From a virus, in IMG/VR virus record IMGVR_UViG_3300037042_003732, positions 1-21,269 of that record: DNA of 21,269 bases. One strand, 5' to 3'. The notes beneath the pieces were generated by a model. That model was not told where the DNA came from and searched no databases. It was given only the letters and a program-made list of their open reading frames with translations. Shown piece by piece: positions 695-19,186 of this stretch. Both the position numbers and the translations under genes were made by a program. How positions within the stretch are numbered: position 1 is the first letter of the stretch; every line of letters starts with the position of its first letter.

Positions 695-943
695 ATGAGA
701 ATTTGTATTTTAACAGAAAACGATAAGGTAGAACAAGTAAGAGAATCTTGGGTAAATAAAAATGTTATGAAAATACCTTGTTCATCAACAGGAGAAGAAC
801 CTGCAACTCATTGGTTTTGTACAATGGCAGGATCTGAAGAAAAAATGATGTCTATTTACGCTAAAAAAAACTTATCTATAATGGAATTAGAAGTTGGCCC
901 AAAAGAATTTCTTAATAAATGGAATCTGAAAATCATAAGGTAG
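695..943 (+). CDS. Small protein of unknown function (82 aa)
   Basis: I do not recognise this protein. It starts with a beta-strand-like MRICILTENDKVEQVRESW and contains two Cys (PCSSTGE and WFCTMAG), with no membrane segment or signal peptide. It follows the LCIB-like gene by 21 nt of A-rich leader and its last 25 nt overlap the start of the oxygenase gene in another frame. That tight packing favours a real, co-transcribed gene. The overlap suggests translational coupling to the oxygenase. A short alpha/beta regulatory or accessory protein is possible, but nothing in the sequence fixes a role. Confidence 0.65.
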   Translation: MRICILTENDKVEQVRESWVNKNVMKIPCSSTGEEPATHWFCTMAGSEEKMMSIYAKKNLSIMELEVGPKEFLNKWNLKIIR

Positions 944-1548
944 TAAAAAATTTTATCAGTGATGATGAGGTTAAACTAATTGTAGATTGGGTTGATTCAT
1001 TAAATCCTGAAGACGGAGACCCGAATTACCATTTAAGTGAGATATCAAAAACACTAAAGGGAAAATCTTGTATTATAGATATCTCAAACACCGAACTTAC
1101 AAACTATATTACAAATTATCAATCAGTTTCTAAAGTTTCAAAACAAGAAGTTCCTACAATAGTCAAAACTATTTTTAAAAGGATATCTGAAGAGAATAAC
1201 CTACCTCTCAATAATATTTTTATTCAAGCGGTTGATATGAATAAGGGTGGTAAAATACAACCCCACTATGATGCGTCACTTGATGGTTACATAAATTATA
1301 AGTGTAACATAAGTGTGTTATCAGAAGATTATAAAATTTTTATAGACGGTTCGTCCCCCGTAATAGAACAAAAGGACTTATACTGTTTTGAGGCGTCTTT
1401 ATACAAACATTGGACCGAAGAGTTTAACTCAAGAAGGGTGTTTTTAAGTTTTGGTTTTATAGTCCCATATAATGTTTTAAATAGAACAGAAAATGATCCA
1501 CGAGTTAGATTAAGTCAAAGAATCACAAAATATTTTCAAAACAAGTGA
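919..1548 (+). CDS. 2-oxoglutarate/Fe(II)-dependent oxygenase
   Basis: Predicted non-haem iron dioxygenase of the double-stranded beta-helix (prolyl-4-hydroxylase-like) type, which uses 2-oxoglutarate and O2 to hydroxylate a substrate. The iron facial triad is visible: H116 and D118 in PHYDAS, and H164 in LYKHWTEE. R172 or R173 in NSRRVFLSFGF is the expected 2-oxoglutarate carboxylate anchor. The N-terminal VVKNFISDDEVKLIVDWVD matches the usual opening helix of phage members. The 209-residue length is normal for a single-domain enzyme. The ATG at 919 lies inside the end of the preceding gene and puts the opening motif at residue 8, so this start is kept. T4-like phages often carry such genes; the substrate (protein, nucleic acid or sugar) cannot be read from the sequence. 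Confidence 0.85.
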   Translation: MESENHKVVKNFISDDEVKLIVDWVDSLNPEDGDPNYHLSEISKTLKGKSCIIDISNTELTNYITNYQSVSKVSKQEVPTIVKTIFKRISEENNLPLNNIFIQAVDMNKGGKIQPHYDASLDGYINYKCNISVLSEDYKIFIDGSSPVIEQKDLYCFEASLYKHWTEEFNSRRVFLSFGFIVPYNVLNRTENDPRVRLSQRITKYFQNK

Positions 1549-1586: not shown

Positions 1587-3395
1587 ATGGAAAATAATAA
1601 TCAAAATCTGACGGTTTGGCAAAGGTTGTCCCAAACATTTGGACCCAATTCCCTTTTGGGTATGGGTCAACCGTCTTATAAGTTAGATAAATCGGAGTTA
1701 CTTAAAACAACAAGTAAACAAGAGTACGAAAAAGAAAAACTCCAACAACAACAATCACTATTTCTTAGTAATCAGTGGGGTAAAATTGAAAACAACCTCT
1801 ATACACAGGCGGTATATTACGAACCGACAAGAATAGCGGCATTTTACGACTATGAGTCAATGGAGTATACTCCAGAAATTTCTACGGCTTTAGATATCTA
1901 CGCTGAGGAGTCTACAACACCCAATCAAGATGGATATGTATTACAAGTTTATTCTGAATCAAAAAGAATCAAATCAATTATTGTAGATCTTTTTATTAAT
2001 AGATTAGATATTAATACTAATTTACCGATGTGGATTAGAAACATGTGTAAATACGGTGATAATTTTGTTTATTTGAAATTGGATGAAGAAAGGGGGGTAA
2101 TAGGATGCCTTCAGTTACCAAATATTGAAATTGAAAGAGTTGAGAGGGGTATGGAAACTAGAACCTTTTCAGCGGTACCAAACATCAAACAAAAATCTCT
2201 AAAATTTAGTTGGAAAGAAAAAAATACAGAATTTCACACATGGGAAGTTGCCCACTTTAGACTTTTAGGTGATGACAGAAAACTTCCTTATGGAACATCA
2301 ATGTTAGAAAAGGCAAGACGTATTTGGAAACAGTTAGTTTTGGCCGAAGATGCAATGTTGATCTATAGAACCTCAAGAGCGCCCGAACGAAGGATATTCA
2401 AAGTATTTGTGGGTAACATGGATGACAAAGACGTTGAGGCTTATGTACAAAGAGTTGCAAACAAATTCAAAAGAGATCAAATAGTTGACAATAAAACAGG
2501 AAACGTTGATTTAAGATTTAATCAAATGGCGGTTGATCAAGATTACTTTGTTCCTGTTCGTGACCAAGCGGCTCCTGACCCAATCACAACACTTCCTGGT
2601 GGTACAAATTTGTCCGAAATCGCGGATATTGAATATATTCAGAAAAAACTTGTTACCGCTTTAAGAATTCCAAAGGCTTATTTAGGTTTCGAGGAAGTTG
2701 TAGGAGATGGTAAAAATTTATCTCTTTTGGATATTCGTTTTGCTCGAACAATCAATAAAATTCAAAAAAGTGTAATTGCCGAAATGAATAAAATCGCAAT
2801 TATACATTTGTTTTTAATGGGGTTTGAAGATGAGTTAGAAAATTTTACACTACAATTGACAAACCCATCTAAACAAGCGGATCTATTGATGATTGATGTT
2901 TGGAAAGAAAAAGTATTATTGTATAAAGATTTGGTTGCTGAGATCCCTAAATCCATCCAAGCAACTTCTGCAACTTGGGCTAAAAAACACATATTTGGTT
3001 TCTCTGATGAAGAAATTAAACTTGATGTACAACAAATTAGAATGGAAAGAGCTGTATCTTCTGAATTGGATAATACGGCGACAATAATTACCCATACAGG
3101 TTTATTTGATAATGTTGATAAGTTATACGGAATCGTTACTGGAGGTACTGAAAGCGGATCTACCGATGAAATGGGTGGTGATGACTCTGGAGGAGCACCA
3201 TCACCAGCAGGACCACCACCACCACCTGAACCCGCTGGCGGAGGTGGAGAACCACCAATTCCTGAAAATTTTGTCGTAAACAAAAATTTAAAAATTTTAA
3301 CTGAGTCAAAAGAAGAAGATTGTTGGAACTTTGAAAAAGGGTCACAGTCTTTTGGCGATTTAGATGAACAACTAGGCAAACTTTTGGGTGATTAG
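1587..3395 (+). CDS. Portal vertex protein, T4 gp20-like
   Basis: Dodecameric portal at the unique head vertex, through which DNA is packaged and to which the neck attaches. The 602 residues show the T4-like portal signature: an N-terminal ALDIYAEEST block near residue 100, the stem region FKVFVGNMDDKDVEAYV near 270-290, and ITTLPGGTNLSEIADIEYI near 330-350, followed by KKLVTALRIPKAYLGF. T4 gp20 is about 524 residues. The extra length is mainly a C-terminal tail with Gly/Pro runs (about residues 525-560, PAGPPPPPEPAGGGG) and then an acidic end. The tail contains ILTE|S, a possible gp21-type cleavage site. The order portal, core protein, protease, scaffold, capsid is the T4 head order. The ATG at 1587 follows an AT-rich leader with a TATTTAT box. 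Confidence 0.93.
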   Translation: MENNNQNLTVWQRLSQTFGPNSLLGMGQPSYKLDKSELLKTTSKQEYEKEKLQQQQSLFLSNQWGKIENNLYTQAVYYEPTRIAAFYDYESMEYTPEISTALDIYAEESTTPNQDGYVLQVYSESKRIKSIIVDLFINRLDINTNLPMWIRNMCKYGDNFVYLKLDEERGVIGCLQLPNIEIERVERGMETRTFSAVPNIKQKSLKFSWKEKNTEFHTWEVAHFRLLGDDRKLPYGTSMLEKARRIWKQLVLAEDAMLIYRTSRAPERRIFKVFVGNMDDKDVEAYVQRVANKFKRDQIVDNKTGNVDLRFNQMAVDQDYFVPVRDQAAPDPITTLPGGTNLSEIADIEYIQKKLVTALRIPKAYLGFEEVVGDGKNLSLLDIRFARTINKIQKSVIAEMNKIAIIHLFLMGFEDELENFTLQLTNPSKQADLLMIDVWKEKVLLYKDLVAEIPKSIQATSATWAKKHIFGFSDEEIKLDVQQIRMERAVSSELDNTATIITHTGLFDNVDKLYGIVTGGTESGSTDEMGGDDSGGAPSPAGPPPPPEPAGGGGEPPIPENFVVNKNLKILTESKEEDCWNFEKGSQSFGDLDEQLGKLLGD

Positions 3396-3415: not shown

Positions 3416-3422
3416 TATTTAT
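3416..3422 (+). promoter_or_regulatory. TATTTAT box, candidate late promoter
   Basis: GATATTTATTT occurs in the 41-nt gap after the portal stop, 14 nt before the ATG at 3437. The 14-nt spacing recurs exactly at 4884-4890 and, on the minus strand, at 12868-12874. Confidence 0.42.
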
Positions 3423-3436
3423 TTAAAAAGAAAAAA

Positions 3437-4153
3437 ATGAAATTTGGTGAATTGAAGTCTAAAATTGAAAAGTGTCTTACCGAGTCATACGGTAAAAACT
3501 CAATGAAAAAAGACCTATTTGTTTTTAAGGAATTGGTTTTAAAAAATAAAAATGTTTCTAAACTTTTTTATTTATACGATGAACTATCTTCTAAAAAAGG
3601 TTTAAACGAGGATGTTGCAAATGAACTTGTAAATCAGGCAATTGTCGTATACGAAAATACAGTTAACAAAATTTCGACAGAAACAATCCAAGAGATAAAA
3701 ATGTGGGTTGGACACATTAATAGTGGTAATGACTATTCAAACATCGACCAACTTTTCTCTAAAAGTTTATTAAATTTGGAATCTAAAATTAAAAGTAAAA
3801 AAATAATTGTAGAAAATTTAAAAAAACAAGAAGTTTTGACTAACAAACAAATTATAAATGTTCCGTTGAAGTCGATGACAAATGTCGCTAACAGAACAAT
3901 CAATTCATACTTATCAAATCTTACAGAGTCAGAACAAAAAGAAGTATTGAATATTCTAAACACACCAAAAGAAAAACTCAACAAAGAGTACAACTCAATC
4001 AAAAATGTTGTTTTAGAAAAATTAGAAAATCAAAAGTTGACAAGTGACGAAGAAACTAAGCAAAAAATAGACGAAGCCGTTAAAAAAATAACAACTGAAG
4101 AGTTTAACGAACTCAACTTTTTTAAACTCAAAAGTCTTTCAGAAGGACTTTAA
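3437..4153 (+). CDS. Putative prohead core protein (gp67/gp68 position)
   Basis: No sequence family is recognised with confidence. The 238-residue protein is rich in Lys, Glu, Asn and Leu and largely helical, with coiled-coil-like stretches around 95-150 and 170-235. It lies between the portal and the protease, where T4 has the small core proteins gp67 and gp68, which fill the prohead and are degraded by gp21. The N-terminus MKFGELKSKIEKCLTESYG carries LTE|S (E16) and the C-terminus ends in KSLSEGL (LSE|G); both fit the L/I-x-E cleavage pattern of gp21-type proteases. Its stop codon shares bases with the stop of the convergent bS21 gene. The role is inferred from position, composition and the possible cleavage sites. 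Confidence 0.6.
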   Translation: MKFGELKSKIEKCLTESYGKNSMKKDLFVFKELVLKNKNVSKLFYLYDELSSKKGLNEDVANELVNQAIVVYENTVNKISTETIQEIKMWVGHINSGNDYSNIDQLFSKSLLNLESKIKSKKIIVENLKKQEVLTNKQIINVPLKSMTNVANRTINSYLSNLTESEQKEVLNILNTPKEKLNKEYNSIKNVVLEKLENQKLTSDEETKQKIDEAVKKITTEEFNELNFFKLKSLSEGL

Positions 4154-4338
4154 ATATTGTTTTTGAATTTTTGAAGGTATTCGGCCTTTTGAAGTACTTT
4201 TCTTTTCTTGACAGAATTTTTTTCAAACTCCTTTCTTTCAAACAAAACTTTATTTTGTTTTGTTTTTATAACCTTCCCCTTCAACTCTTTTAGAGCTCGT
4301 TCGATGTTACCTTTATTGTCTACTTTAACTATTAGCAT
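4150..4338 (-). CDS. rpsU: Phage-encoded ribosomal protein bS21
   Basis: A 62-residue basic protein of the small ribosomal subunit. The start MLIVKVDNKGNIERALKELK matches the opening of Bacteroidota bS21 (MLI-P/V-V...NIDRALK-KFK). It continues KVIKTKQ, then RKEFEKNSVKKRKVLQKAEY, corresponding to the family's RxxFxKPSxxKRxxxxKAxY. An upstream in-frame ATG would add 32 hydrophobic residues unlike any bS21, so the internal ATG at 4338 is used. bS21 sits by the anti-Shine-Dalgarno end of 16S rRNA; in Bacteroidota it takes part in hiding that sequence. A viral copy could replace the host protein and shift translation toward phage mRNAs. The gene runs antisense inside the head operon, converging on the core-protein gene with a shared stop region and diverging from the gene at 4416. 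Confidence 0.87.
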   Translation of the reverse strand: MLIVKVDNKGNIERALKELKGKVIKTKQNKVLFERKEFEKNSVKKRKVLQKAEYLQKFKNNI

Positions 4339-4355
4339 AAAATTTCTTGGTTGAT

Positions 4356-4362
4356 ATAAATA
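4356..4362 (-). promoter_or_regulatory. TATTTAT box upstream of bS21
   Basis: On the coding strand of bS21 this reads TTATATTTATATC, 17 nt before the ATG at 4338. It lies in the 77-nt gap between the divergent bS21 gene and the gene at 4416, so bS21 probably has its own promoter of the same class as the head genes, indicating late expression. Confidence 0.4.
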
Positions 4363-4415
4363 TAATAATTGTTTAAAATTATAAAAAATAAACTTCTGAA
4401 GTATGAAAAATTTAT

Positions 4416-4883
4416 ATGAAAAAAGGAAAAACATGCAAAATCAATGGTTTTCGCACATTTAAATCCCAATATGGGACAATCGACTCACAAACCCTAAAAT
4501 CAATTTACCTCAATTTACAAACTTGGGTCGAACCAAAAGAAGAAATCGAAAATTGGAATCGTGTGGTTTTAAACATGACAAGAAATGTAAAACACTCGGT
4601 TTACGAAAATTTAAACAAAGAACTTTTTGATGACAAATTTATTGTCGATTTGGACCTCAGGACAAGCGGGATCCAATTAAAAAAGAAATCTTTTATGAAC
4701 TTAGAGGTAAACCTCTATCTTAATGATCATATGGATTTCAAGTCTCCAAAACTAAAAAAAATTGTCAAAAATTTGATTAAAGAAATTTACGGTGACGTTT
4801 TTTCTAAAAACAAATATTTTAAATTCTACCTAACAAAAAATGGTAATGTTAAACCAATAAAAAAACAAACTGAAAGTGTTTAG
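4416..4883 (+). CDS. Unknown protein between core and protease genes (155 aa)
   Basis: I do not recognise this protein. It is basic (many Lys), soluble, with no signal or membrane segment. Visible patterns are IDSQTLKSIYLNLQTWVEP, a WNRVVLNMTRNVKHSVYEN helix, and a beta-rich middle (FIVDLDLRTSGIQLKKKSF, LEVNLYLN) followed by a KLKKIVKNLIKEIY helix. It lies in the head module directly before the protease gene, with only 21 nt between them, so a role in head assembly or a linked late function is likely. The start at 4416 lies 77 nt from the bS21 start. An out-of-frame ATG occurs at 4404 but leads to no long frame. Confidence 0.75.
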   Translation: MKKGKTCKINGFRTFKSQYGTIDSQTLKSIYLNLQTWVEPKEEIENWNRVVLNMTRNVKHSVYENLNKELFDDKFIVDLDLRTSGIQLKKKSFMNLEVNLYLNDHMDFKSPKLKKIVKNLIKEIYGDVFSKNKYFKFYLTKNGNVKPIKKQTESV

Positions 4884-4890
4884 TATTTAT
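4884..4890 (+). promoter_or_regulatory. TATTTAT box before the prohead protease gene
   Basis: AGTATTTATTG begins immediately at the stop of the preceding gene (4881-4883), leaving 14 nt to the ATG at 4905. The tight placement in a 21-nt gap, with the same spacing as the box at 3416, makes chance AT-richness less likely. Confidence 0.42.
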
Positions 4891-4904: not shown

Positions 4905-5633
4905 ATGAAAGATCTAAGAATTTTAGGGCCAAGAGAAAGTGGTAGAGGGATTTTAGTTGAGTATGATGCAGGATACATTAATCCCATGGAAAGAAGAAAT
5001 TTGGACTTGATAAGGGAGAACAAAAGTTTTTTGGATCATTCAAAACCATTTGAGTTTTTTGCGGTTTTACAAAAATATGACACCCCAAATAGAAATGGTA
5101 GAATATACCCTGAAAAAATATTGAAACGTGAATCAGATAATTATAAAAAAATGATTCAAAAGGGAGTTGCTTTATCTGAACTCAATCACCCCGAATCATC
5201 ATTGATTGATTTAGATCGTGTATCACATATTATCACTGATGTGTGGTGGGAAGGTCCTATATTATTGGGTAAAATAAAATTACTCACAAGCCCTGGTTTT
5301 CATGAAAGTGGTATTGTTTCTACAAAGGGCGATTTAGCCGCAAACTATTTACGTCAAGGAGTTACTTTAGGTATTTCTTCTCGTGGTGTAGGATCACTTA
5401 AAAAAGTGGGGGATCAAAATGAAGTACAAGATGACTTTGAATTAATTTGTTTTGACCTTGTATCTTCACCTTCTACACCAGGAGCTTACTTATTTCTTAA
5501 TCCTGAAGACAGAGCGTCATTAGAAGAAAACTTAGATGAAGAAAAACAAAGACAGGTTGAAAGACATGTTGGGGATAGTGGTAACGCTTCTCTTGACTTA
5601 ATGAGAAGATTAACCGATTATTTGGATAAATAA
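4905..5633 (+). CDS. Prohead core protease, T4 gp21-like
   Basis: Serine protease of the T4 prohead type (herpes-assemblin-like fold) that matures the head by cutting capsid, core and scaffold proteins, usually after L/I-x-E. The hallmarks are present: FEFFAVLQKYDTPNRNGRIYP near residues 50-70, SELNHPES with the catalytic His at 95, and GVTLGISSRGVGS with the catalytic Ser at 158 or 159, followed by LVSSPSTPGAY. The ATG at 4905 (242 residues) is preferred over an in-frame TTG at 4890, because the TTG falls within the TATTTAT box and adds only LLKTF. The C-terminal 40 residues are acidic and helical, and may be lost on self-activation. It sits between the portal and scaffold genes as in T4, with the DUF4494-like gene 6 nt downstream. 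Confidence 0.93.
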   Translation: MKDLRILGPRESGRGILVEYDAGYINPMERRNLDLIRENKSFLDHSKPFEFFAVLQKYDTPNRNGRIYPEKILKRESDNYKKMIQKGVALSELNHPESSLIDLDRVSHIITDVWWEGPILLGKIKLLTSPGFHESGIVSTKGDLAANYLRQGVTLGISSRGVGSLKKVGDQNEVQDDFELICFDLVSSPSTPGAYLFLNPEDRASLEENLDEEKQRQVERHVGDSGNASLDLMRRLTDYLDK

Positions 5634-5962: not shown

Positions 5963-5969
5963 TATTTAT
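5963..5969 (+). promoter_or_regulatory. TATTTAT box before the scaffold gene
   Basis: AAATATTTATTTG lies 22 nt before the ATG at 5992 and 62 nt after the terminator. Because a strong terminator precedes the scaffold and capsid genes, a promoter is expected here, which makes this one of the better-supported copies of the box. Confidence 0.5.
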
Positions 5970-5991: not shown

Positions 5992-7494
5992 ATGCAAAAA
6001 AACAAAAACGTAGTTGAAGACGCTCTTTTACAAATTAAGAATTTGGAAGAAGCTCTCCAAGAGAATGCAAAAGGAATACTTCATTCAACAATGAAAGAAG
6101 AAATCAAACAATTGGTAAAAGAATCTCTCAATGAGGAGGAAGATGAAGACATTGACGATGAGGTTGAAACTGTTTCAGATGATGAAACACTAAACACAGG
6201 GGATGAAAGTGATGATGAATTTGACATGGGTATGTCGATTCAAGAACCGATGAGTAACGAGGTTCCTGATGAGAATGAACAAGAACCCATTAATATGACA
6301 AAAGCGCCTGATTCCGAGGTTCTAAGAGTATTTAGAGCTATGGGACCCGAAGACGGTATAATCGTGCAAAAAGAAGACGATATGATTAATATAAAAGATG
6401 GCGAAAGAGAATATATGATCCAACTTGGTGAATCTGAGGAAGAATTTGGATTCGAGGCAGATTTTACTGATAATGATTTTCCTGAAGATTTGGAAGAAAT
6501 GATGTTCAATCAATTTGGTGACGAAGATGATGATGATGGTGAATACTCAGAAGGTTACATTTATGAAATTGTTATGGATGAGGAAGATACTACTAATTCA
6601 GCTTACGATCCTAACCAAGAAGCACAAATTTCTGAAGATGATGATTTAGAAACTTTCGCATCTGAAGAAGATGATGACGATGATGAATATAGTTTAGAAG
6701 ACTTGGAAGAGGAAGATGATCTACCAATGTCTTTAGATGATGCAATCATGGAGGCTATCAAAAAAACATCAAAACCAAAAGGAGTAGGAATCGGAAATGG
6801 ACCTAAATTCAAATATGGTAAGACAACTGATTACCCAACAAAAAAACAAAAGAGTGCGTTTGGTAATGACAGTGTTAAGGCTAAAGGAACTGGCAAAGCT
6901 AAGTTCGAATATGATGAAGACGTGAACATGGATGGTTACTCAGATAAAAAACCTAAAAGAAGTGTTAAGAAAGTAGAAACTAAAGAAGCGTCAAGAACTA
7001 ATAGTTACCCTAACGCTAACAAAGTTGGTAACAGAAAAGGTTCAAATCAAAACATCAATAGAACCCAAGTGAGAGTTAGACCTAATAATAGAGTTAACGA
7101 AGAAGTTGAAGTTCTTAAAGAAAAAAATGAAGAGTACAAAAAAGCCCTTGATGTTTTCAGAAACAAACTTAACGAAGTTGCAATTTTCAATTCTAATTTG
7201 GCTTACGCAACTAGACTGTTTACAGAACACTCAACAACTAAACAAGAAAAAATCAACATCCTTAGAAGATTTGATTCGGTTGAAACTTTGAAAGAATCTA
7301 AAAATCTATACAGAACTATCAAAGACGAATTAGGATCTACTACTAAAGGTGGTGAGGCAACAATTAAAGAATCATTCGAAAGAAACGTAGTTAAAACTCC
7401 TTCAACAGGATCCTCTACAAATCTAATCGAATCTAAGACTTATGAGAATCCACAATTCTTAAGAATGAAGGATCTTATGTCAAAATTAAAATAA
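5992..7494 (+). CDS. Prohead scaffold (core) protein, T4 gp22-like
   Basis: Major internal scaffold around which the capsid protein assembles, later cut to peptides by the gp21-like protease. Identification is by position directly before the capsid gene and by architecture; sequence identity to gp22 is not evident. The 500 residues fall into zones: a helical N-terminus (1-45, LLQIKNLEEALQE); a very acidic, repetitive Asp/Glu stretch (about 45-250, with runs such as EEDDDDDEYSLEDLEEEDD); a Lys-rich basic zone (about 255-370); a coiled coil (about 373-410, EVEVLKEKNEEYKKALDVF); and a conserved-looking C-terminus. That terminal LNEVAIFNSNLAYATRLF to RFDSVETLKESKNLYRTI stretch is typical of T4-like scaffold proteins, followed by LIESKTYENPQFLRMKDLM. 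Several L/I-x-E sites are present, including LIE|S near the end. It is nearly twice the length of T4 gp22 (about 269). Confidence 0.85.
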   Translation: MQKNKNVVEDALLQIKNLEEALQENAKGILHSTMKEEIKQLVKESLNEEEDEDIDDEVETVSDDETLNTGDESDDEFDMGMSIQEPMSNEVPDENEQEPINMTKAPDSEVLRVFRAMGPEDGIIVQKEDDMINIKDGEREYMIQLGESEEEFGFEADFTDNDFPEDLEEMMFNQFGDEDDDDGEYSEGYIYEIVMDEEDTTNSAYDPNQEAQISEDDDLETFASEEDDDDDEYSLEDLEEEDDLPMSLDDAIMEAIKKTSKPKGVGIGNGPKFKYGKTTDYPTKKQKSAFGNDSVKAKGTGKAKFEYDEDVNMDGYSDKKPKRSVKKVETKEASRTNSYPNANKVGNRKGSNQNINRTQVRVRPNNRVNEEVEVLKEKNEEYKKALDVFRNKLNEVAIFNSNLAYATRLFTEHSTTKQEKINILRRFDSVETLKESKNLYRTIKDELGSTTKGGEATIKESFERNVVKTPSTGSSTNLIESKTYENPQFLRMKDLMSKLK

Positions 7495-7522: not shown

Positions 7523-9409
7523 ATGGGAGCATTATTAGAATCAGGTCTTGTAGGTAACATTGGTTTAAAACACCTTAAAGTTATCAAAGAAGACACTATT
7601 AACAAATGGGACAGATTAGGCTTTTTAGATGGCCTAAGAGGTCACTTAAAAGAAAACGTGGCTCAATTATATGAGAACCAAGCATCTTACTTAATTAACG
7701 AAGCAACTTCTGACGGATCTTCTAACGGAGCATTCGAAACGGTTGTTTTCCCTATCGTAAGACGTGTATTCTCTAAATTGTTGGCTAACGACATCGTATC
7801 AGTACAAGCAATGAACTTACCTATTGGTAAATTGTTCTACTTTGTACCTCGTATCCAAGGGTATGCTAACGACGTAGCAACAGACAACGGTGGTGTACAT
7901 TACCCACCAATCGGTTCACCTGAGGCTGTAAATGCAGGTCAAAATAACCCAGGACAAGGTTATCCAGATTCAGGAGCAGTTCCTAATTACCCTTACGGTA
8001 AAAACCTTTATGACTTGTTCTACGAAGGTAACGAAGCAGGTTTAGATCCTCCAGGATTGTTTGACTACTCTAAAGGTAGATGGACTGCTTGTAGCTCTAA
8101 CACTCAAGTTCAAGTATGGCAAAATGGTATGTTGGTTGACGCTACAGGTATATTGGTTAATTCTTATACAGGTAACACAAGAAAAGTGTTAATGAAACTT
8201 TGTGGATTTACACCTGTAGGTGCTGGTAAATTGATTGGACCTGATGGTCAAGAAATGGATACAGAATCTTTCTTATCTGATTTGACTATTACGCCTCTTG
8301 CAGGTTTAGAGTTTTCATCAGGTAACACATGTCCTCAAACAGGTGGACCAATCCTTTTTAGAGTTGTAACTCAAATCTACGGAAAAGGAATCGTTCAGTA
8401 CGGTAACCAAACACAAACTAACTTTAACGCATTCACATACGGTACAGGTGCTGCGGCTACCAACTCAGGTAACGGTGGAAACTATTGGGATATTTGTGAC
8501 TCACAAGGTTGTATCTATCTTGAAGTGGATCTTTCTTGTCCGGCTTGTGCAACTTGTGGTAATGACACTTTAGATGGTTACACAGGAGCAACAATTTCAG
8601 CAATCACTTCAGGAAGTTCTTTCTTGGCAACTTGGAGACGTTACGAAGAGATGGAATTTGAAGACAAAATTGGTGAGGTTTCTTTTGACCTTGAGTCAGT
8701 AACTGTATCTGTTACAGAAAGAAAACTAAGAGCACAATGGTCTCCTGAATTAGCTCAAGACGTTGCGGCATTCCACAACATCGATGCTGAAGCTGAATTG
8801 ACAGCATTGTTGTCAGAACAAGTAGCGGCTGAGATCGACCGTGAAATCTTACGTGACTTACGTAAAGGTGCAGCTTGGAACTTACGTTGGGACTACAACG
8901 GATGGAGAAGAATTGGTGCTACCACTTCTTACACTCAAAAAGATTGGAACCAAACATTGATTACAGCAATCAACCAATTGTCAGCACAAATCCACAAATC
9001 TACTTTGAGAGGCGGTGCTAACTGGATCGTTGTTTCATCTGAGGTTTCTGCAATCTTTGACGATTTAGAATACTTCCACGTATCTAACGCGGCTCCTGAG
9101 CAAGATCAATACAACATGGGTATTGAAAGAGTTGGTACATTATCTGGACGTTACCAAGTTTACCGTGATCCTTACTTCCCACCAAACCAAGTATTGGTAG
9201 GACACAAAGGTACATCATTGTTAGACACAGGTTACATTTACGCTCCGTACGTACCTCTACAATTAACACCTACAATGTACAACCCATTCAACTTTACACC
9301 TATCAAAGGTATTATGACACGTTACGCTAAGAAAATGGTTAACAACCGTTTCTACGGACGTATCACAGTTGATGGAGTTAGAACATTTGACTTGAGAGAA
9401 TTGAGATAA
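7523..9409 (+). CDS. Major capsid protein, T4 gp23-like
   Basis: HK97-fold shell protein of the head. The T4 signature is clear: after the pro-region comes GAFETVVFPIVRRVFSKLLANDIVSVQAMNLPIGKLFYFVPRI, the counterpart of the gp23 segment ending in VQPMNSPTGQVF. Later blocks are EMEFEDKIGEVSFDLESVTV, RKLRAQWSPELAQDVAAFHNIDAEAELTALLSEQ, and the C-terminal TRYAKKMVNNRFYGRITV. A pro-peptide cut site INE|A lies at residue 60 (gp23 is cut after 65). The 628 residues exceed gp23 (521), mostly through an insert at about 185-350 that holds all eight Cys (190, 227, 270, 325, 330, 339, 342, 345). Codon use is cleaner and richer in C-ending codons than in its neighbours, fitting very high expression. The leader is A-rich, without a Shine-Dalgarno sequence. 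Confidence 0.96.
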   Translation: MGALLESGLVGNIGLKHLKVIKEDTINKWDRLGFLDGLRGHLKENVAQLYENQASYLINEATSDGSSNGAFETVVFPIVRRVFSKLLANDIVSVQAMNLPIGKLFYFVPRIQGYANDVATDNGGVHYPPIGSPEAVNAGQNNPGQGYPDSGAVPNYPYGKNLYDLFYEGNEAGLDPPGLFDYSKGRWTACSSNTQVQVWQNGMLVDATGILVNSYTGNTRKVLMKLCGFTPVGAGKLIGPDGQEMDTESFLSDLTITPLAGLEFSSGNTCPQTGGPILFRVVTQIYGKGIVQYGNQTQTNFNAFTYGTGAAATNSGNGGNYWDICDSQGCIYLEVDLSCPACATCGNDTLDGYTGATISAITSGSSFLATWRRYEEMEFEDKIGEVSFDLESVTVSVTERKLRAQWSPELAQDVAAFHNIDAEAELTALLSEQVAAEIDREILRDLRKGAAWNLRWDYNGWRRIGATTSYTQKDWNQTLITAINQLSAQIHKSTLRGGANWIVVSSEVSAIFDDLEYFHVSNAAPEQDQYNMGIERVGTLSGRYQVYRDPYFPPNQVLVGHKGTSLLDTGYIYAPYVPLQLTPTMYNPFNFTPIKGIMTRYAKKMVNNRFYGRITVDGVRTFDLRELR

Positions 9410-18442: not shown

Positions 18443-19186
18443 TTATTTTTTCAAAATTTCTTGAACTAACTCAAAGTATATTTTTTTATATTTCTTTAAT
18501 GAGGTTCTAATTTCTTTAGTTGACAAATTAGTCATCTCCCTTAATTCGAATAAAATAATGTTTTTGTTAAATTTGTTATTGTTGGAGTCAGGAAATATTG
18601 TACCGTAATTTTCAAATAAGTCATAAATTGCGGATCCTAATTTGAGTTCTTGTTCATTTACACAATCATTTTCTAAAGTTGACTTTAGTTTATCTAAAAA
18701 TTTTTTAATTATAACTTCTGAACCAACATCATCTGAGTCTATGTAATAAGACATATTCATGTTGTTATTCAAATCGGATGAAATATCTTCGTAAGATATT
18801 TTCCTATTCATTTCTTTTTGATCTTTCATGATCTGACCCATCAAGTAATTTTTACAGATGGTTCCAAAATAAGAATAAGCCTTCTTTTCCTTTGAAGGCT
18901 TAAACTTTTCTATTTTTGTCATCAAAAAAGAATGAGTGTCATTATGAATTTCTTCATAATTCATGTCTTTCCTGTACAATTTATATCTTCGGATTATGGA
19001 AGATATCATTTTATCTAAAGGGTGTCTTAAAAACTCATTATAAATTTTATTTCTTTCATAATCCGAATCAGTTACTAAAAAAAGTCTTACAGCATTTTCC
19101 TCTCTTTCGGCAAAATAATTTAATGTGGTGGGTTTTCTTCCTTTCTTTTTCTTTTCTAATTGTTCGACGTTTTCATTTTCAAACAT
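18443..19186 (-). CDS. Late-transcription sigma factor, T4 gp55-like
   Basis: Sigma factor directing host RNA polymerase to phage late promoters. Residues about 55-125 show a reduced sigma region 2: MISSIIRRYKLYRKDMNYEE, then SFLMTKIEKFKPSKEKKAYSYFGT, then CKNYLMGQIMKDQKE. The K-F-x-P-x-K...Y-F-x-T block is the best match to T4 gp55 and its relatives. At 247 residues it is longer than gp55 (185). The extra C-terminus has LREMTNLSTKEIRTSLKKYK, which looks like a helix-turn-helix that gp55 lacks. The Lys-rich N-terminus (EKKKKGRKPT) may contact DNA. The start overlaps the stop of the glycosyltransferase gene upstream as TAATG, so translation is coupled. An ECF-like sigma factor is the alternative label. 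Confidence 0.82.
   Translation of the reverse strand: MFENENVEQLEKKKKGRKPTTLNYFAEREENAVRLFLVTDSDYERNKIYNEFLRHPLDKMISSIIRRYKLYRKDMNYEEIHNDTHSFLMTKIEKFKPSKEKKAYSYFGTICKNYLMGQIMKDQKEMNRKISYEDISSDLNNNMNMSYYIDSDDVGSEVIIKKFLDKLKSTLENDCVNEQELKLGSAIYDLFENYGTIFPDSNNNKFNKNIILFELREMTNLSTKEIRTSLKKYKKIYFELVQEILKK

Follow-up and report, generated by a model that had tools for sequence, protein, structure and literature searches.

A conserved phage bS21 gene opposite T4-type head genes carries a late-type promoter box and lacks a Shine-Dalgarno sequence

The IMG/VR virus record analysed here, a stretch of 21,269 bases that we call the window, carries a bS21 gene on the strand opposite its head genes. We propose, with a probability of about 0.7, that its product is a functional phage paralogue of bS21 that is made late, replaces host bS21 on the 30S subunit and keeps Shine-Dalgarno (SD)-independent initiation going, outside the feedback to which the host gene is subject. 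The gene, its conservation and selection, a promoter-like box, an SD-less leader, Tyr54 and a phage clade are observed here; the published sources cited below add late transcription of such genes and, by analogy, incorporation into ribosomes, reported for the bS21 of one other phage alone. Phage bS21 genes are a natural setting in which to ask if viruses can alter a bacterial ribosome's choice of mRNAs for initiation, and the missing SD ties these phages to the known autoregulation of rpsU.

An earlier note on this DNA had proposed a 62-residue bS21 on the reverse strand, and an open reading frame of exactly this extent is present (Table 1). Its product matches Pfam PF01165 (Ribosomal_S21) at 29.9 bits (E 4.6e-7), above the curated cut-off of 27, so the bS21 profile hit on which that note had made its proposal depend is there; 17 of 17 sampled relatives match the same family. 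A profile of the window protein's relatives found the solved F. johnsoniae bS21 (7jil) at E 3e-18, and the predicted structure consists of two helices (residues 12-36 and 41-61) and a linker (pLDDT 79.8, pTM 0.41). Tyr54, which stacks on the anti-SD, is present, in line with the Bacteroidota type assigned earlier. The NCBIfam model for the cellular bS21 equivalog, TIGR00030, scored the window protein at 16.5 bits, under its cut-off of 28.95, and full ribosomal equivalence is therefore not certain; two other head-locus phages scored 17.7 and 23.7, both also below the cut-off, compared with 55 for host bS21 and 41.6 for the bS21 of a 735-kb phage. Judged by these matches, the window protein is a bS21-family member on a divergent branch and probably works like bS21. 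The low equivalog score would also suit a non-ribosomal or virion role, with the protein either packaged or serving assembly as a small RNA-binding protein; this would explain why bS21 lies between head genes in all relatives, and packaging is raised as a possibility in PMC9723584. We nevertheless consider such a role very unlikely, given that K40, S42 and R46 of the ribosome-bound half are invariant in the phage proteins and Tyr54 is nearly so.

Two sets of relatives were gathered, one by bS21 (L002-L081) and one by the gp21 protease alone, not bS21 (L082-L161). Among the protease-selected loci, 67 were usable, each with at least 1,100 bases upstream, and in all 67 an antisense bS21 lies between the same two conserved genes. 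Because IMG/VR holds 589 candidate stretches encoding bS21 relatives, and because slot and orientation are the same in 67/67, the placement is not a matter of chance. The median dN/dS across 39 close pairs of phage bS21 was 0.08, and by this sequence measure purifying selection on the phage protein is strong. Four long relatives each have one bS21 copy, and the gene is real, conserved and ordinary for its phage group. As a separate observation, a few genomes of the phylum and order samples (G127, G046, G097, G112, G149 and G237) have bS21 in two or three copies.

The stop codons of bS21 (4150-4152, reverse strand) and of the convergent gene (4151-4153, forward strand) interlock, which bears out the earlier statement that the antisense bS21 has its stop region in common with its neighbour. 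By its position, the convergent gene may encode a gp67/68-like prohead core protein. Interlocking stops and an orientation that is always kept could also mean that the antisense placement is itself the function, with bS21 transcription interfering with the convergent gene or vice versa; we regard this as highly improbable, as it is the protein sequence that is under strong purifying selection and the stops show no conserved hairpin beyond shuffled sequence. The idea that the convergent stops hold a conserved terminator hairpin was also discarded: the best hairpins hardly differed from those of shuffled sequence, and a terminator scan found none. The earlier description of the surroundings as a head operon holds for the neighbours, gp20, gp21 and gp23 being of T4 type, but not for the transcription, since Chen et al. 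(PMC9723584) found that its genes are not transcribed together as a single operon. No TerL match was found in the window, a fragment of 21 kb, and it is therefore not assignable to clades a-e of Chen et al.

Table 1. Features of the window, with coordinates in bases from its first letter
Feature	Coordinates	Strand	Remarks
bS21 gene	4150..4338	-	62 aa; ATG start, TAA stop; Tyr54; phage signature V23-I24-K27-Q28
TATTTAT late-type promoter box of bS21	4356..4362	-	18-24 nt ahead of ATG
TTAA, interlocking stops of bS21 (-) and convergent gene (+)	4150..4153		four-base overlap, palindrome
Convergent conserved gene, between gp20 and bS21	3437..4153	+	238 aa; TATTTAT box 3416..3422 (+)
Divergent conserved gene	4416..4883	+	155 aa; confident predicted alpha/beta fold, pLDDT 88.7
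TTGATA-N17-TAAAAT ... AATAAAC ahead of divergent gene	4351..4393	+	conserved in relatives
gp20 portal	1587..3395	+	PF07230, E 1e-76; TATTTAT box 1559-1565
gp21 prohead protease	4905..5633	+	PF03420, E 4e-22; TATTTAT box 4884-4890
Scaffold-like gene, by position	5992..7494	+	TATTTAT box 5963-5969
gp23 major capsid protein	7523..9409	+	PF07068, E 3e-73; without own TATTTAT box
Candidate gp55-like late sigma factor	18443..19186	-	weak: PHROG 234 E 0.004; Pfam Sigma70_r2 E 0.03, below cut-off

Upstream of gp20, the window opens with a forward-strand gene (2-673, open at its 5' end) for a protein of the LCIB carbonic anhydrase family (PF18599, 89 bits, E 3e-25). LCIB relatives occur in 42 IMG/VR loci, and the same two genes, of 82 aa and 209 aa, often come next; no match was found in the cultured-phage collection, and no open-literature paper linking LCIB to phages was found. 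The 209-aa gene (919-1548, forward strand) is 98% identical to its counterpart in L046 over the part present there (6859-7152), whereas identity in the adjoining gp20 is only 70%, a contrast suggestive of a recently exchanged cassette beside gp20.

The earlier note had given bS21 a TATTTAT box of its own, and the box found on the bS21 strand is of a type common to the head genes. In a 149-kb relative (G003), TATTTAT is the most strand-biased 7-mer ahead of genes (45 sense, 11 antisense; binomial p 5e-6), and a 165-kb relative (G004) shows a weaker bias (30 sense versus 14 antisense, p 0.02). Among distinct relatives, the sense box precedes the convergent gene in 65/65, gp21 in 68/68 and gp20 in 39/46; it precedes the scaffold gene in 43/90, where many starts are misplaced, the capsid gene (gp23) in 2/66 and the divergent gene in 0/67. 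The capsid gene, so rarely with a box of its own, may therefore rely on transcripts that start at the scaffold gene, or on some other signal. Ahead of bS21, 35 of 69 distinct relatives have the sense box, where about 5 would be expected by shuffling and the antisense form occurs once. Its presence clusters on the gp21 tree, with 33 of 34 members of a supported set that includes the window possessing it. As about half of the relatives are without TATTTAT at bS21, the late box is not universal there, and these phages must use something else. TATTTAT thus behaves like a strand-specific late promoter of these phages, a promoter-like element as far as sequence can tell, and a late sigma factor might read it, the candidate being the gp55-like gene of Table 1. 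Late expression of such bS21 genes is published (PMC9723584), and together with the late-type box this agrees with the timing late in infection put forward earlier; the box is a likely cause of the published late (co-)expression.

Several other readings of the upstream elements were set aside. The box does not fit a T4-type TATAAATA promoter for the divergent forward-strand gene, since the strand bias is the opposite, TATTTAT being the sense form. Relatives lacking TATTTAT at bS21 (L051, L053, L057, L075, L142, L150 and others) share a conserved element resembling GATATWTGTAWTAT immediately ahead of the bS21 ATG, sometimes palindromic (ATATT-TGT-AATAT); GATATWTGTA is at most a candidate for the bS21 promoter of such phages, as it is not repeated ahead of other genes in one of them. 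AATAAAC was likewise dropped as a general promoter element, being scattered and without consistent position in two long relatives, yet it is conserved before the divergent gene, and in nearly all relatives a forward-strand TTGAYA-like hexamer lies 35-39 bases ahead of it. In the window this -35 hexamer, TTGATA, abuts the late box of bS21, and base 4356 is common to both. Promoter-like matches in the region numbered 13 against 11.6 expected by chance, so the argument for a divergent-gene promoter comes from conservation. The divergent gene has no informative family in Pfam, NCBIfam or PHROG, and a fold search with its protein returned a single strong match, to an uncharacterised myovirus protein; assignment of a known function was accordingly dropped.

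We then considered how translation of bS21 begins. The 25 bases ahead of bS21 were paired with the 3' tail of 16S rRNA, which we take to be AUCACCUCCUUUCU, with a threshold of -8 kcal/mol. No SD was found in the phage bS21 leaders, none of the 62 reaching the threshold, and their mean pairing energy is close to that of shuffled sequence (-0.7 versus -0.5 kcal/mol). Other phage genes are SD-less as well, with 0-2% below -8 kcal/mol, and the phage leaders are A-rich. Host rpsU loci were gathered with the F. johnsoniae sequence, a query with the phage alignment having given no tblastn-confirmed host locus. All 15 distinct rpsU leaders from Flavobacterium-type hosts fall below -13 kcal/mol, as expected of an extended SD; a strong rpsU SD is less common in the wider host samples (4/10 and 5/26 distinct leaders). 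One 735-kb uncultured phage (L317, LR756501; bS21 at 6001) has a strong SD, AAAGGAGG, at -12.1 kcal/mol, and SD absence is therefore not common to all phage bS21.

These observations bear on what the phage protein would do. Nearly all Bacteroidota mRNAs are SD-free (PMC9976891, PMC6847099), and in F. johnsoniae rpsU is under autoregulation, by way of an extended SD that bS21-lacking ribosomes recognise (McNutt et al. 2023, PMC9976891, who also discuss phage bS21). The earlier suggestion that a phage copy retunes host ribosomes toward SD-free capsid mRNAs is weakened by this: host mRNAs are SD-free too, so the idea, which is not new, does not separate phage from host. In the reading that we prefer, a late-type promoter of its own, opposite the head genes, would drive bS21 late in infection, and the product would most likely substitute for host bS21 on the 30S subunit. 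The phage protein keeps Tyr54 and is therefore predicted to conceal the anti-SD as host bS21 does, with the 3' tail of 16S rRNA tucked away; ribosomes would stay bS21-replete, maintaining the SD-independent initiation used by host and phage alike. Such a late supply should keep ribosomes competent for SD-less initiation, because in F. johnsoniae initiation on SD-less mRNAs is poor when the ribosome lacks bS21 or the C-terminus of that protein (PMC9976891). As the phage bS21 mRNA has no SD, its synthesis should escape the feedback that limits bS21 in hosts such as Flavobacterium.

A stronger version would have the phage turn this feedback against the host: phage bS21, free of SD control, would fill all 30S subunits, hide the anti-SD and stop rpsU translation, since rpsU needs bS21-lacking ribosomes, and host bS21 would be replaced without a protease. 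The SD that is absent from phage leaders and present in Flavobacterium rpsU, the retention of Tyr54 and the demonstrated autoregulation of rpsU (PMC9976891) are all consistent with this, yet many sampled Bacteroidota are without a strong rpsU SD, and with expression this late, host bS21 would hardly have time to turn over; we therefore find it doubtful. That the phage protein is a replacement decoupled from feedback, an SD-free bS21 from a late promoter that hides the anti-SD on all ribosomes and so switches off rpsU translation, with host autoregulation itself removing host bS21, seems to us unlikely. Silencing of rpsU by phage bS21 through the autoregulatory loop was not found in the available text of the literature on phage bS21 and rpsU.

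Among the checks suggested earlier were a phylogeny against host bS21 and a comparison of the residues that contact the anti-SD. A tree of 73 distinct phage proteins and 85 from hosts, limited to 64 columns, places phage bS21 on one side of a branch with SH-aLRT 100, and thus in a separate clade. Tyr54 is kept, residue 54 being aromatic in 73/73 phage proteins (Y in 66, H in 5, F in 2). The N-terminal half differs, with K/E5, G/S21, V23, I24, K/R27 and Q28 in phages versus P5, R21, F23, D24, G27 and T28 in hosts. V23 occurs in 62/73 phage proteins and I24, K/R27 and Q28 each in 71/73; F23, D24, G27 and T28 occur in 49/49 distinct proteins of Flavobacterium-type hosts, from which the phage signature is absent. 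A fixed phage signature suggests that the protein may have a further property; Chen et al. propose that the altered N-terminal half makes loaded ribosomes prefer phage mRNAs. This specialised ribosome would be compatible with late replacement of host bS21, and the near-fixation of the signature in a single phage clade and the mapping of the divergent residues to the mRNA-facing helix (PMC9723584) argue for it; against it, no selectable sequence is known in the phage leaders, which are A-rich and SD-less like those of Bacteroidota generally. We consider it less likely than not.

Taken together, the finding is already known in kind, because Chen et al. 2022 (PMC9723584) reported its main features: the gene on the reverse strand amid head genes, the aromatic residue 54 and late expression. 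Their Bacteroidetes myoviruses have, like the window, a reverse-strand bS21 between two hypothetical families, with the portal, protease and capsid genes no more than a few genes away, TerL being among the neighbours they describe, and they likewise share the phage clade and the N-terminal divergence from host bS21. Neither the TATTTAT box nor SD absence was found in the available text of PMC9723584, and the late box on the bS21 strand and the missing SD appear to be regulatory additions; the V23-I24-[K/R]27-Q28 signature of a single phage clade was not found published either. Pelagiphage HTVC008M also encodes a bS21, which enters E. coli ribosomes (Mizuno et al. 2019, PMC6375957), those containing it being almost inactive in vitro; this is another phage with a host of another phylum. 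Uncultured phages of 634-735 kb (LR756501 and others) encode a bS21 about 50% identical to that of the window over 90-98% of its length, and that of the 735-kb phage differs in keeping its SD and passing the equivalog cut-off. The cultured Flavobacterium phage immuto (NC_055915) shares the T4-like head locus and has TATTTAT before terL, gp20 and other genes (7/20 genes sense, 2 antisense), with no bS21 gene anywhere in its 160-kb record. Flavobacterium host bS21 (rpsU, 7JIL) belongs to the same family as the window protein, with similar length, Tyr54 and a conserved C-terminal half, and differs from it in having F23-D24-G27-T28, an extended SD and 55 bits, where the phage has V23-I24-K27-Q28, no SD and 16.5 bits.
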